Source: Rhodoflexus caldus
Lineage (GTDB): Bacteria > Bacteroidota > Bacteroidia > Cytophagales > Thermoflexibacteraceae
Assembly: GCF_021206925.1 (NCBI RefSeq)
Contig: NZ_JAJPRF010000006.1
Coordinates: 1 to 64,000, forward strand
Reading direction: 5' to 3'
DNA length: 64,000 bases
The notes under the pieces: generated by a model
What the model saw: only the letters and a program-made list of their open reading frames with translations
What the model was told of the DNA's origin: nothing
Databases searched by the model: none
Position numbers and translations under genes: made by a program
Part shown: positions 9,100-28,146 of the stretch, piece after piece
Position numbering within the stretch: the stretch's first letter is position 1
How the letters are laid out: every line of letters begins with the position of its first letter

Positions 9100-9195
9100 A
9101 AACCTGACAGGCTTTTGTAGCCTATCAGGTTTAAATAGCTGCTTTTCAGAAATTTACACAAAATATTTTTCGCAAATCACTTGCGCTTTTGTATA
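9100..9195 (+). repeat. Composite hairpin-plus-tail repeat, copy A
   Basis: A hairpin (9100-9113 with 9119-9132) built around CCTGACAGG is followed by a tail at 9143-9195. The tail starts TTTTCA, carries TTTACACAAAA and ends CTTTTGTATA. The same two-part unit recurs at four other places in this window. Here it sits just downstream of the leftward thiolase gene. Confidence 0.85.
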
Positions 9196-13818: not shown

Positions 13819-13915
13819 AAACCTGACAGGTTTCTAACACCTGTCAGGTTTAATCGCTTGTTTTCCAATAATTTACACAAAAAATTTTTCGCAAAATCAC
13901 TTGCACTTTTGTATA
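13819..13915 (+). repeat. Composite hairpin-plus-tail repeat, copy C
   Basis: A perfect 13-bp hairpin (13819-13831 with 13839-13851) is followed by a tail at 13861-13915. The tail contains ATTTACACAAAA and CGCAAAATCACTTGC and ends TTTTGTATA. With copy B it forms a tandem pair between converging genes. Confidence 0.88.
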
Positions 13916-25623: not shown

Positions 25624-25660
25624 AAAATCCTGTCAGGTTTCAGAAACCTGACAGGATTTT
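25624..25660 (+). terminator. Strong intrinsic terminator
   Basis: A perfect 17-bp hairpin (25624-25640 and 25644-25660) with a 3-nt loop has A/T ends and lies 26 bases after the stop of the acidic protein gene. Its CCTGTCAGG core is the same as in the stems of the composite repeats, but the conserved tail is missing here. Confidence 0.88.
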
Positions 25661-25753: not shown

Positions 25754-26230
25754 ATGGAAAACTCAACCGGTACCAATCAGGCTGCCGACTTAGAACAGGA
25801 ATTTCTTACCCAAATCACCAACTACGGCTTTATTATTGAGCGAACAACCAAACGCATCCGCCAAAATCTGCAACGCCGTTTCAATGCGCATCATTTCGGC
25901 GTAACGGTTGACCAGTGGGTCGTGCTGGACTGTATCCGCCAAAACCCGAGCATCAGCCAAAACGAAATTGCCGACCGCACCTTTAAAGATGCCCCCACCG
26001 TTACGCGCATCATCGACCAACTCTGTAAAAAAGGATTGACCACCCGTTCGGTAGATGAAAACGACCGCCGCAGGTTTATTGTCGAACTCACCCCCAAAGG
26101 TCATAAAAAGGTCAGCCAAATGCTTCCCGTTGTTATTGAGATGCGCAAAGACGGCTGGAAAGGACTTGATATTACTGACTATCAAAAACTTATGCACATC
26201 ATGAGCACCATTTTCAACAACTTGGATTAG
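25754..26230 (+). CDS. MarR-family transcriptional regulator
   Basis: The 158-residue protein has the MarR winged-helix plan. A first helix is followed by VDQWVVLDCIRQNPSISQNEIADRTF (read here as QNEIADRTFKDAPTVTRII for the recognition part) and a wing containing DENDRRRFIVELTPKGHKK. MarR proteins bind short palindromes as dimers and usually leave DNA when they bind a small ligand. The next gene, an acyl-CoA dehydrogenase, has two copies of TTATGC-N2-GCATAA around its promoter, which are the likely targets. An acyl-CoA or fatty acid would be a reasonable ligand, but that is inference. Confidence 0.92.
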   Translation: MENSTGTNQAADLEQEFLTQITNYGFIIERTTKRIRQNLQRRFNAHHFGVTVDQWVVLDCIRQNPSISQNEIADRTFKDAPTVTRIIDQLCKKGLTTRSVDENDRRRFIVELTPKGHKKVSQMLPVVIEMRKDGWKGLDITDYQKLMHIMSTIFNNLD

Positions 26231-26253: not shown

Positions 26254-26307
26254 TTATGCTTGCATAACATTTTTTTCTTTACTTTTGTATTGTTATGCAC
26301 GCATAAC
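26254..26307 (+). promoter_or_regulatory. Acyl-CoA dehydrogenase promoter with two MarR-type operators
   Basis: Operator 1 is TTATGC-TT-GCATAA (26254-26267) and includes the TTG of the -33 region. The -7 box TACTTTTG (26280-26287) follows after 17 bases. Operator 2 is GTTATGC-AC-GCATAAC (26292-26307), covering the predicted start site. The operator centres are 39 bp apart. A dimer on either site would block RNA polymerase. Confidence 0.75.
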
Positions 26308-26349
26308 AATTTTCTCTTTGTGCACCTAAATCATTAAACGCTGTATATT

Positions 26350-28146
26350 ATGGAAATGGTAGAAAGAAAAGAAGCCCTCAAAGGCGGAGAGTTCCTGATT
26401 CGCGAATCTGAAGCCCATGATGTATTCATCCCTGAGGACTTTACCGAAGAGCAACGCATGATGGCGCAAGCCTGTACGGACTTCCTGCGCACCGAAGTTT
26501 TCCCCAATGTGGACAAAATGGAAGATGTAGAGTCCGGCTTCACGATTGAGTTGATGAATAAAGCCGGCGAGCTTGGCCTTTTGGGGATCTCTGTTCCCGA
26601 AGAATACGGCGGATTGGGCATGAGTTTCAATACCTCAATGCTTGTTGCCGACGTATTGGGCACGGGCGGTTCTTTCTCTACTGCGTTTGGTGCACATACA
26701 GGCATAGGCACGCTGCCGATTCTGTACTACGGCAACGAAGAACAAAAGCGCAAATACTTGCCAAAATTGGCTACCGGCGAGTGGAAAGCCAGCTACTGCC
26801 TCACCGAACCCGATGCAGGTTCAGATGCCAATTCGGGCAAAACCAAAGCGCGCCTGAGCGAAGACGGCAAACACTACATCATCAACGGGCAAAAGATGTG
26901 GATTACAAACGCAGGTTTTGCCGATTTGTTTATCGTTTTTGCCAAAATTGATGACGATAAAAACCTGACTGCATTCATTGTAGAAAAGTCATACGGCGGC
27001 ATTACGATGAACGACGAAGAAAAGAAACTTGGTATCAAAGGTTCTTCTACCCGTCAGGTATTTTTCAATGATTGCCACGTGCCCGTAGAAAATATGCTTT
27101 CTACACGCGGCAATGGTTTTAAAATTGCCGTAAATATTCTCAATATCGGTCGTATTAAATTGGCTGCTGCCGTTATTGGTGCTTGCAAAGACGTGATTAC
27201 GATGGCTACCAACTATGCCAACGAACGCAAGCAATTCGGCAAGTCTATTTCTTCTTTCGGTGCTATCAAGCACAAAATCGGTGAGATGACTGCCCTGACC
27301 TATGCCACCGAGTCGGCAGCCTATCGTGCAGGTCAGTGCATCGAAGATAAAATCAATGCGCTGATTGCCGAAGGCATGGACGAGGCACAAGCCAAACTCA
27401 AAGGCGTAGAGCAATTTGCCATTGAGTGCGCCATTATGAAAGTGCACGGCTCCGAGGTGTTGGACTATGTGGTAGACGAAAGCCTGCAAACCTACGGCGG
27501 CATGGGCTTCTCCGAAGAAGCTCCGATGGCACGCGCTTACCGCGATGCACGTATCACACGCATCTATGAAGGCACAAACGAAATCAACCGCATGTTGCTA
27601 GTAGGTATGATTCTGAAGCGTGCAATGGCGGGCGAATTGGATGTTCTCGGCCCTGCAATGGCTGTTGCCAAAGAACTGACCAGCGTTCCTACTTTCGGTG
27701 CAATTGATGCCTCCGTACTGTTTGCCGAAGAAAAAGAAACTATCAAAGGCTTGAAAAAAGCCGTGCTGATGGTAGCAGGCAAAGCCGCCCAAACTTTCGG
27801 CCCTGCCTTGGAAGAACAGCAGGAAGTAATGATGCACGTAGCCGATATGATTATTGAAACCTACGTAGCCGAGTCTGCCCTGTTGCGCACCGAAAAACTG
27901 ATTGGTATCCGCGGTGAGGCTGCTTGCCAACAATACATCAACATGGCACGCCTGTATCTGAACCGCGCAGTGGATAAAGTAGCTTACCACGGCAAAGAAG
28001 CTATCAACAGCTTTGCTACCGGCGACGAGCAGAAAGTAATGCTGATGGGTCTGAAGCGTTTTGCAAAGATGAATCCTATCAATGCAACGGCTATTCGCCG
28101 CGAGTTGGCTGACTTTGTGATTGAGCAAAACAAGTATCCTTTCTAA
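26350..28146 (+). CDS. Acyl-CoA dehydrogenase, long form
   Basis: This 598-residue FAD enzyme oxidises acyl-CoA to enoyl-CoA in beta-oxidation. ASYCLTEPDAGSDANS and KMWITNAGFADLF are the flavin and substrate motifs. YEGTNEINR (near residue 415) carries the catalytic glutamate typical of the medium/very-long-chain group. About 180 extra residues after the core resemble the C-terminal extension of VLCAD-type enzymes, so long-chain substrates are likely. The promoter carries two palindromes likely bound by the MarR protein encoded just upstream, which suggests induction by substrate. No thiolase or hydratase is adjacent. Confidence 0.93.
   Translation: MEMVERKEALKGGEFLIRESEAHDVFIPEDFTEEQRMMAQACTDFLRTEVFPNVDKMEDVESGFTIELMNKAGELGLLGISVPEEYGGLGMSFNTSMLVADVLGTGGSFSTAFGAHTGIGTLPILYYGNEEQKRKYLPKLATGEWKASYCLTEPDAGSDANSGKTKARLSEDGKHYIINGQKMWITNAGFADLFIVFAKIDDDKNLTAFIVEKSYGGITMNDEEKKLGIKGSSTRQVFFNDCHVPVENMLSTRGNGFKIAVNILNIGRIKLAAAVIGACKDVITMATNYANERKQFGKSISSFGAIKHKIGEMTALTYATESAAYRAGQCIEDKINALIAEGMDEAQAKLKGVEQFAIECAIMKVHGSEVLDYVVDESLQTYGGMGFSEEAPMARAYRDARITRIYEGTNEINRMLLVGMILKRAMAGELDVLGPAMAVAKELTSVPTFGAIDASVLFAEEKETIKGLKKAVLMVAGKAAQTFGPALEEQQEVMMHVADMIIETYVAESALLRTEKLIGIRGEAACQQYINMARLYLNRAVDKVAYHGKEAINSFATGDEQKVMLMGLKRFAKMNPINATAIRRELADFVIEQNKYPF

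Follow-up and report, generated by a model that had tools for sequence, protein, structure and literature searches.

A paired operator at fadE of Rhodoflexus caldus and a candidate MarR-type repressor of beta-oxidation encoded on another contig

The analyzed stretch of Rhodoflexus caldus DNA (64,000 nucleotides, hereafter the window) carries a MarR-family gene, MarR1 (25754–26230, forward strand; Pfam MarR PF01047, 58 bits, cut-off 24.6), which ends in a stop codon at 26228–26230. It is followed by fadE (26350–28146, forward strand; start codon ATG at 26350), the regulated gene, encoding a long acyl-CoA dehydrogenase of 598 amino acids (NF058590 FadE; 786 bits, cut-off 600). Two palindromes without strand assignment occupy the intergenic region. 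Operator 1 (TTATGC-TT-GCATAA; 26254–26267) is an exact copy of TTATGC-N2-GCATAA, located 23 bp from the MarR1 stop codon and overlapping a presumed −33 element, the TTG of which (26260–26262, forward strand) was read from the sequence. Operator 2 (ATTGTTATGC-AC-GCATAACAAT; 26289–26310, with the core TTATGC-AC-GCATAA at 26293–26306) spans the presumed transcription start. Between both operators lies the −7 box TACTTTTG (26280–26287, forward strand), likewise read from the sequence and fitting TAnnTTTG. The −7/−33 consensus TAnnTTTG/TTTG is that given in PMC2483708, where the TAnnTTTG box is reported from Bacteroides fragilis and from a Flavobacterium promoter.

An original prediction, made from the sequence alone, had recognized in this region MarR-type operators bracketing a promoter, and our analysis supports it. 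Both copies of TTATGC-N2-GCATAA are exact and are the sole exact copies in the window, their centers are 39 bp apart as proposed, and one copy does include the TTG of the −33 element. The second copy was correctly placed past the −7 box, but its arms are 10 bp long instead of the suggested 7 bp. Two exact copies compare with 0.005 expected per 64 kb, and three in the genome with 0.5 expected. In an alignment of four genus members operator 1 is invariant in 14/14 columns and the −7 box in 8/8; operator 2 is invariant in 10/14 columns, and the remainder of the 125-bp 5′ region in 32/89. One of these genomes, G001, has operator 2 altered symmetrically on both arms (GTATGC..GCATAC).

The genome scan for TTATGC-N2-GCATAA that had been suggested along with the prediction returned three exact copies, the fadE pair and one located 5′ of etfBA. 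The motif is too narrow as originally written: the site preceding a second MarR gene, marR2, reads GTATGC..GCATAA, and that of a short-chain acyl-CoA dehydrogenase gene reads GTATGC..GCATAC. Since the outer base alternates between T and G among relatives, we searched for the broader motif KTATGCNNGCATAM; the 3.96-Mb genome contains five exact sites for it, with about 1.2 expected by chance anywhere. Two of them belong to fadE, and the others precede etfBA (99 bp upstream of etfB, the products carrying ETF domains), the short-chain acyl-CoA dehydrogenase gene (379 amino acids; 84 bp upstream) and the marR2–DUF2147–fadN cluster. All five exact sites stand before beta-oxidation genes, so 5/5 serve beta-oxidation, supporting the earlier proposal of a regulon motif for fatty acid degradation. 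Operators in front of several dispersed beta-oxidation genes characterize the functional class of fatty acid degradation regulators (FadR, PsrA, FadP), and this is the arrangement found here.

Relaxing the motif did not extend the regulon. At one mismatch or fewer the genome has 46 matches (5 exact and 41 with one mismatch) versus 33 for the reversed pattern; with genes called as mechanical open reading frames (ORFs), 37 of the 41 lie inside an ORF (a few of these ORFs being short and possibly spurious) and 4 are intergenic. A single one is convincing, TTATGTATGCATAC at C3:100901, with another acyl-CoA dehydrogenase gene following after approximately 24 bp. An extension by one-mismatch sites was therefore rejected and the remaining sites were treated as background. 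GTATGC-like 16-mers with up to two mismatches were rarer than in the control (13 versus 29 per strand).

The MarR gene found behind exact sites in genomes G058, G006 and G007 is marR2. In R. caldus it is located on contig C4 (approximately 86.04–86.53 kb, reverse strand), and its product matches Pfam PF01047 with 48.5 bits (cut-off 24.6). MarR2 and MarR1 are only about 19–29% identical and form separate clades with 100/100 support in the tree. Among the NCBIfam matches listed at E ≤ 1e-10, no named equivalog reached its cut-off for MarR2, FabT not being among these matches. A short palindromic operator in a regulator's own and target promoters is a MarR family trait that MarR2 displays. Of 17 genomes tested, 16 have MarR2, and four of these lack a close MarR1; it was not found in G005 (a genome 89% complete), though this genome keeps one fadE site. 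At E ≤ 1e-20 it is absent from 201/247 sampled phylum genomes, hence the circuit is not universal. In the four genus members marR2 precedes fadN, as it does in G009, G058, G045, G039 and G054, with one intervening gene in some of them. In all four genus members a small gene separates the two (L134 9605–10036), and the R. caldus copy of it encodes a Pfam DUF2147 protein.

The sites are conserved well beyond the genus. All four genus genomes carry exact KTATGCNNGCATAM sites at the identical five places (20/20). In 11 other family genomes, 29/34 exact sites precede fadE, etfB, marR2, the short-chain dehydrogenase gene or, in G011, a thiolase gene; the remaining five are found before AAA ATPase genes (G008, G011), before a CCG-domain gene (G010) and inside coding sequence (G006, G010). 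We then scored the core TATGCN2GCATA within 300–330 bp upstream of genes in a near set of 17 genomes, consisting of R. caldus, G001–G011 (its family, including genus mates) plus five members of the order that gave a good match to MarR1; G012 (62% complete) and order members with a weak or no MarR1 match were left out. A wider phylum set contributed 43 marR2 promoters after removal of G021 and G045, which already belong to the near set.

The core is exact upstream of fadE in 16/17 near-set genomes and upstream of etfB in 12/17 (14/17 allowing one mismatch); at etfB, a site was absent within the scored stretch in G011 and G045, and G005 has one with two mismatches. Upstream of marR2 it is exact in 12/16 near-set and 38/43 wider-set promoters (50/59 overall), rising at up to one mismatch to 13/16, 41/43 and 54/59, respectively. 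Among 59 permuted palindromes none had an exact match in any promoter set. The five marR2 promoters failing the one-mismatch rule are those of G011 (two mismatches), G004, G154, G267 and G009, the last one scored on a shortened stretch and counted as a miss, with a two-mismatch site there and an in-frame stop in the gene. The only genome of the 17 in which no fadE site was found is G045, and this is explained by its gene order: fadE there ends a marR2–fadN–fadA–fadE cluster, and the sites stand at the head of this cluster.

Of the 16 fadE promoters having a site, 13 contain two operators, and those of G004, G005 and G021 contain a single one. Both cores are exact in 11 of these 13 pairs; in the other two, the first core deviates by one mismatch (G007) or by two (G009). 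Spacing within the pair varies from 37 to 51 bp, and such variation favors two dimers binding independently over a fixed contact. The operators also keep a relation to the promoter: TAnnTTTG starts 16–22 bp past the operator center in 13/16 fadE and 35/54 marR2 promoters having a site, versus 0–5 matches in other intervals of 7 bp, with the exception of one fadE interval, in which the 8 matches reflect operator 2. At etfB, TAnnTTTG has this position in only 2/14 promoters, and in four it starts 7 bp past the center. An operator on the −33 element, joined at fadE by another over the presumed start, is as read here the layout of a repressor.

The identity of the base outside TATGC varies together with one residue of MarR2. 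This residue, Arg68 of the recognition helix (numbered from the MSKQ start; index 60 of the counted fragment), stands just before a conserved Ser-Leu-x-Arg, at what we take to be one residue before the position of Ser62 in SlyA. The comparison covered the 56 genomes for which a MarR2 sequence and sites were both available; G009 (in-frame stop in the marR2 match), G005 (no MarR2), and G154 and G267 (no site) were dropped. The 21 genomes with Arg have 55 T, 47 G and neither C nor A at the outer base; the 33 with Thr have 41 T, 29 C, 9 A and 2 G; and the two with Gly, G006 and G010 of the window's own family, have 10 C, 5 T, 1 A and no G. The outer T is frequent in every residue class, Thr and Arg included, and the contrast is limited to G versus C: 47 G and 0 C with Arg, 2 G and 39 C with Gly or Thr. 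Fisher's test gives p = 5e-23 with phylogeny ignored, and according to the tree the residue changed independently only about three times. Gly is nested inside the Arg clade, representing one clean switch within the window's own family; the outer C is found at fadE and etfB in both G006 and G010, and the marR2 site of G010 has it as well. In SlyA, the recognition-helix residues Ser62, Val64 and Arg65 contact bases (PMC4737184).

The original prediction had assigned both operators to the adjacent gene product, that is, to MarR1 acting as the fadE repressor. MarR1 is a genuine MarR protein encoded at a mere 23 bp from operator 1, and its gene adjoins fadE in three genus members (G000, G002 and G003, the only ones among the genomes examined). 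However, in the fourth member, G001, MarR1 lies approximately 25 kb from fadE, where both operators remain, and in G008 and G011, which keep two fadE operators, no MarR1 orthologue was found (best partial matches with E of 5e-5 and 8e-5). In the loci read, the marR1 promoter stretch has no site at up to two mismatches; an operator is found in the marR2 promoter instead, and the motif tracks the helix of MarR2. No listed NCBIfam equivalog (HpaR, SlyA, BilQ, FabT and others) reached its cut-off for MarR1, with FabT scoring 26 against a cut-off of 200. The attribution to MarR1 is unsupported: MarR1 is probably not the regulator reading the fadE sites, and we rejected it as the main binder, a role that now appears highly improbable, on account of the sites in G008 and G011 and the covariation with the MarR2 helix.

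A role shared between the two proteins is somewhat easier to accommodate, albeit unlikely. MarR1 and MarR2 might compete for the two operators on offer, which would provide fadE with an additional input restricted to this genus, in which three members have MarR1 next to fadE. However, double fadE operators also occur where MarR1 is unlinked (e.g., G008, G011, G006, G010, G058 and G039), so the pair needs no second protein, and the low identity and separate clades of MarR1 and MarR2 speak against a shared site; we infer that MarR1 does not share the sites. Inverted repeats between two genes of the same strand could also be a product of chance or transcription terminators of the MarR1 gene. We give this reading practically no weight: besides the expectation of 0.005 per window, the palindromes still accompany fadE at its changed location in G001, recur in front of etfB and marR2 in other genomes and are positioned at a set spacing from the −7 box. 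Their conservation already contradicts such a reading.

Very probably, then, the fadE pair is a double operator for MarR2, a presumably acyl-CoA-released repressor of beta-oxidation that is encoded elsewhere and controls its own gene. We hypothesize that a MarR2 dimer binds KTATGCNNGCATAM (core TATGC-N2-GCATA, with a different outer base in other lineages). At fadE one dimer would occupy the −33 element and a second the presumed transcription start, and RNA polymerase would therefore be shut out from both sides. Sites of the same kind would repress marR2–DUF2147–fadN, etfBA and the short-chain acyl-CoA dehydrogenase gene, a set that would include much of the beta-oxidation pathway together with the electron carrier used by its dehydrogenases. 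Release of MarR2 would be triggered by an intermediate of the pathway, a fatty acyl-CoA being the most likely one. This choice of ligand follows from the release of CouR by a CoA thioester and from the fact that the predicted MarR2 targets make or use acyl-CoAs. Our best reading is that MarR2 is autoregulated and represses beta-oxidation in some of the Bacteroidota, with release by acyl-CoA being probable.

FadR, PsrA and FadP have acyl-CoA as a ligand. The systems listed for Proteobacteria comprise FadR of the GntR family and PsrA and FadP of the TetR family (PMC5343134). The predicted circuit resembles them in having one regulator for dispersed beta-oxidation genes and, presumably, in release by acyl-CoA; it differs in protein family, MarR2 belonging to the winged-helix MarR proteins and having TATGC-N2-GCATA as its proposed operator. 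Among the matches listed in open-licence literature none described a repressor dedicated to fatty acid degradation in Bacteroidota, and the sole match to an operator-like string came from an unrelated nematode paper. We therefore class MarR2 as a putative MarR-type catabolic repressor working like FadR and PsrA but outside their families.

Within the MarR family, CouR of Rhodococcus jostii RHA1 represses a catabolic pathway and is released by p-coumaroyl-CoA; its operator, cATTGA-N5-TCAATg, is an inverted repeat over the −35 box and is also present between couN and couR (PMC4737184). Like CouR, MarR2 appears to be a repressor of a catabolic pathway with operators over the −35/−33 element and at its own gene. 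However, the operator differs, the CouR ligand is aromatic, and the two proteins show only a weak sequence match (PDB 5cyv, E 1.8e-6; 3fm5, E 1.9e-6). FabT, the streptococcal MarR regulator of fatty acid synthesis, senses an acyl thioester, its binding being strengthened by acyl-ACP (PMC5487221). FabT and MarR2 may thus be counted together as MarR regulators of fatty acid metabolism, acyl thioester sensing being a property of FabT, but FabT controls synthesis and its binding is strengthened rather than relieved by its effector.

The circuit predicts for Bacteroidota a beta-oxidation repressor, its operator, its targets and a specificity switch of a single residue. More broadly, and with good though lesser confidence, we propose that beta-oxidation in a large part of this phylum is under one hitherto undescribed MarR-type master repressor with a readable protein–DNA code, in which Arg allows G and Gly or Thr allow C outside TATGC and operators follow the helix across the regulon. 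The double operator at fadE would act as a clamp holding the first step tightest, and the placement of MarR1 in this genus would be incidental. The nearest regulator gene can mislead, as the motif belongs, on present evidence, to a regulator encoded on another contig.

Several minor features accompany these loci. Two exact operators lie outside beta-oxidation, before AAA ATPase-like genes, at G008:C40:37920 (L214 1501) and G011:C34:14809 (L215 1501). The G011 protein, the one profiled, is a Pfam AAA_15 member, and a threonyl-tRNA-synthetase-like gene is located on the opposite side of its site. An exact operator in G010:C8 (L210 1243) precedes a gene encoding a cysteine-rich CCG-domain protein, which may belong to an electron-transfer partner of ETF. 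The beta-oxidation cluster of G045 contains, between fadN and the thiolase gene, a gene for a 23S rRNA-intervening-sequence-type protein (L135 5065–5424). Near 72 kb of G001:C85 (L024), the gene after MarR1 appears by eye to be nuclease- or transposase-like; possibly, MarR1 and fadE were separated in this genome by an insertion or a rearrangement. Finally, a palindromic repeat around AACCTGTCAGG recurs in the window at 9101–9113, 13820–13850, 25627–25657 and other positions (12 matches on both strands at up to one mismatch, 0.76 expected), and one of its copies forms a terminator-like hairpin upstream of MarR1.
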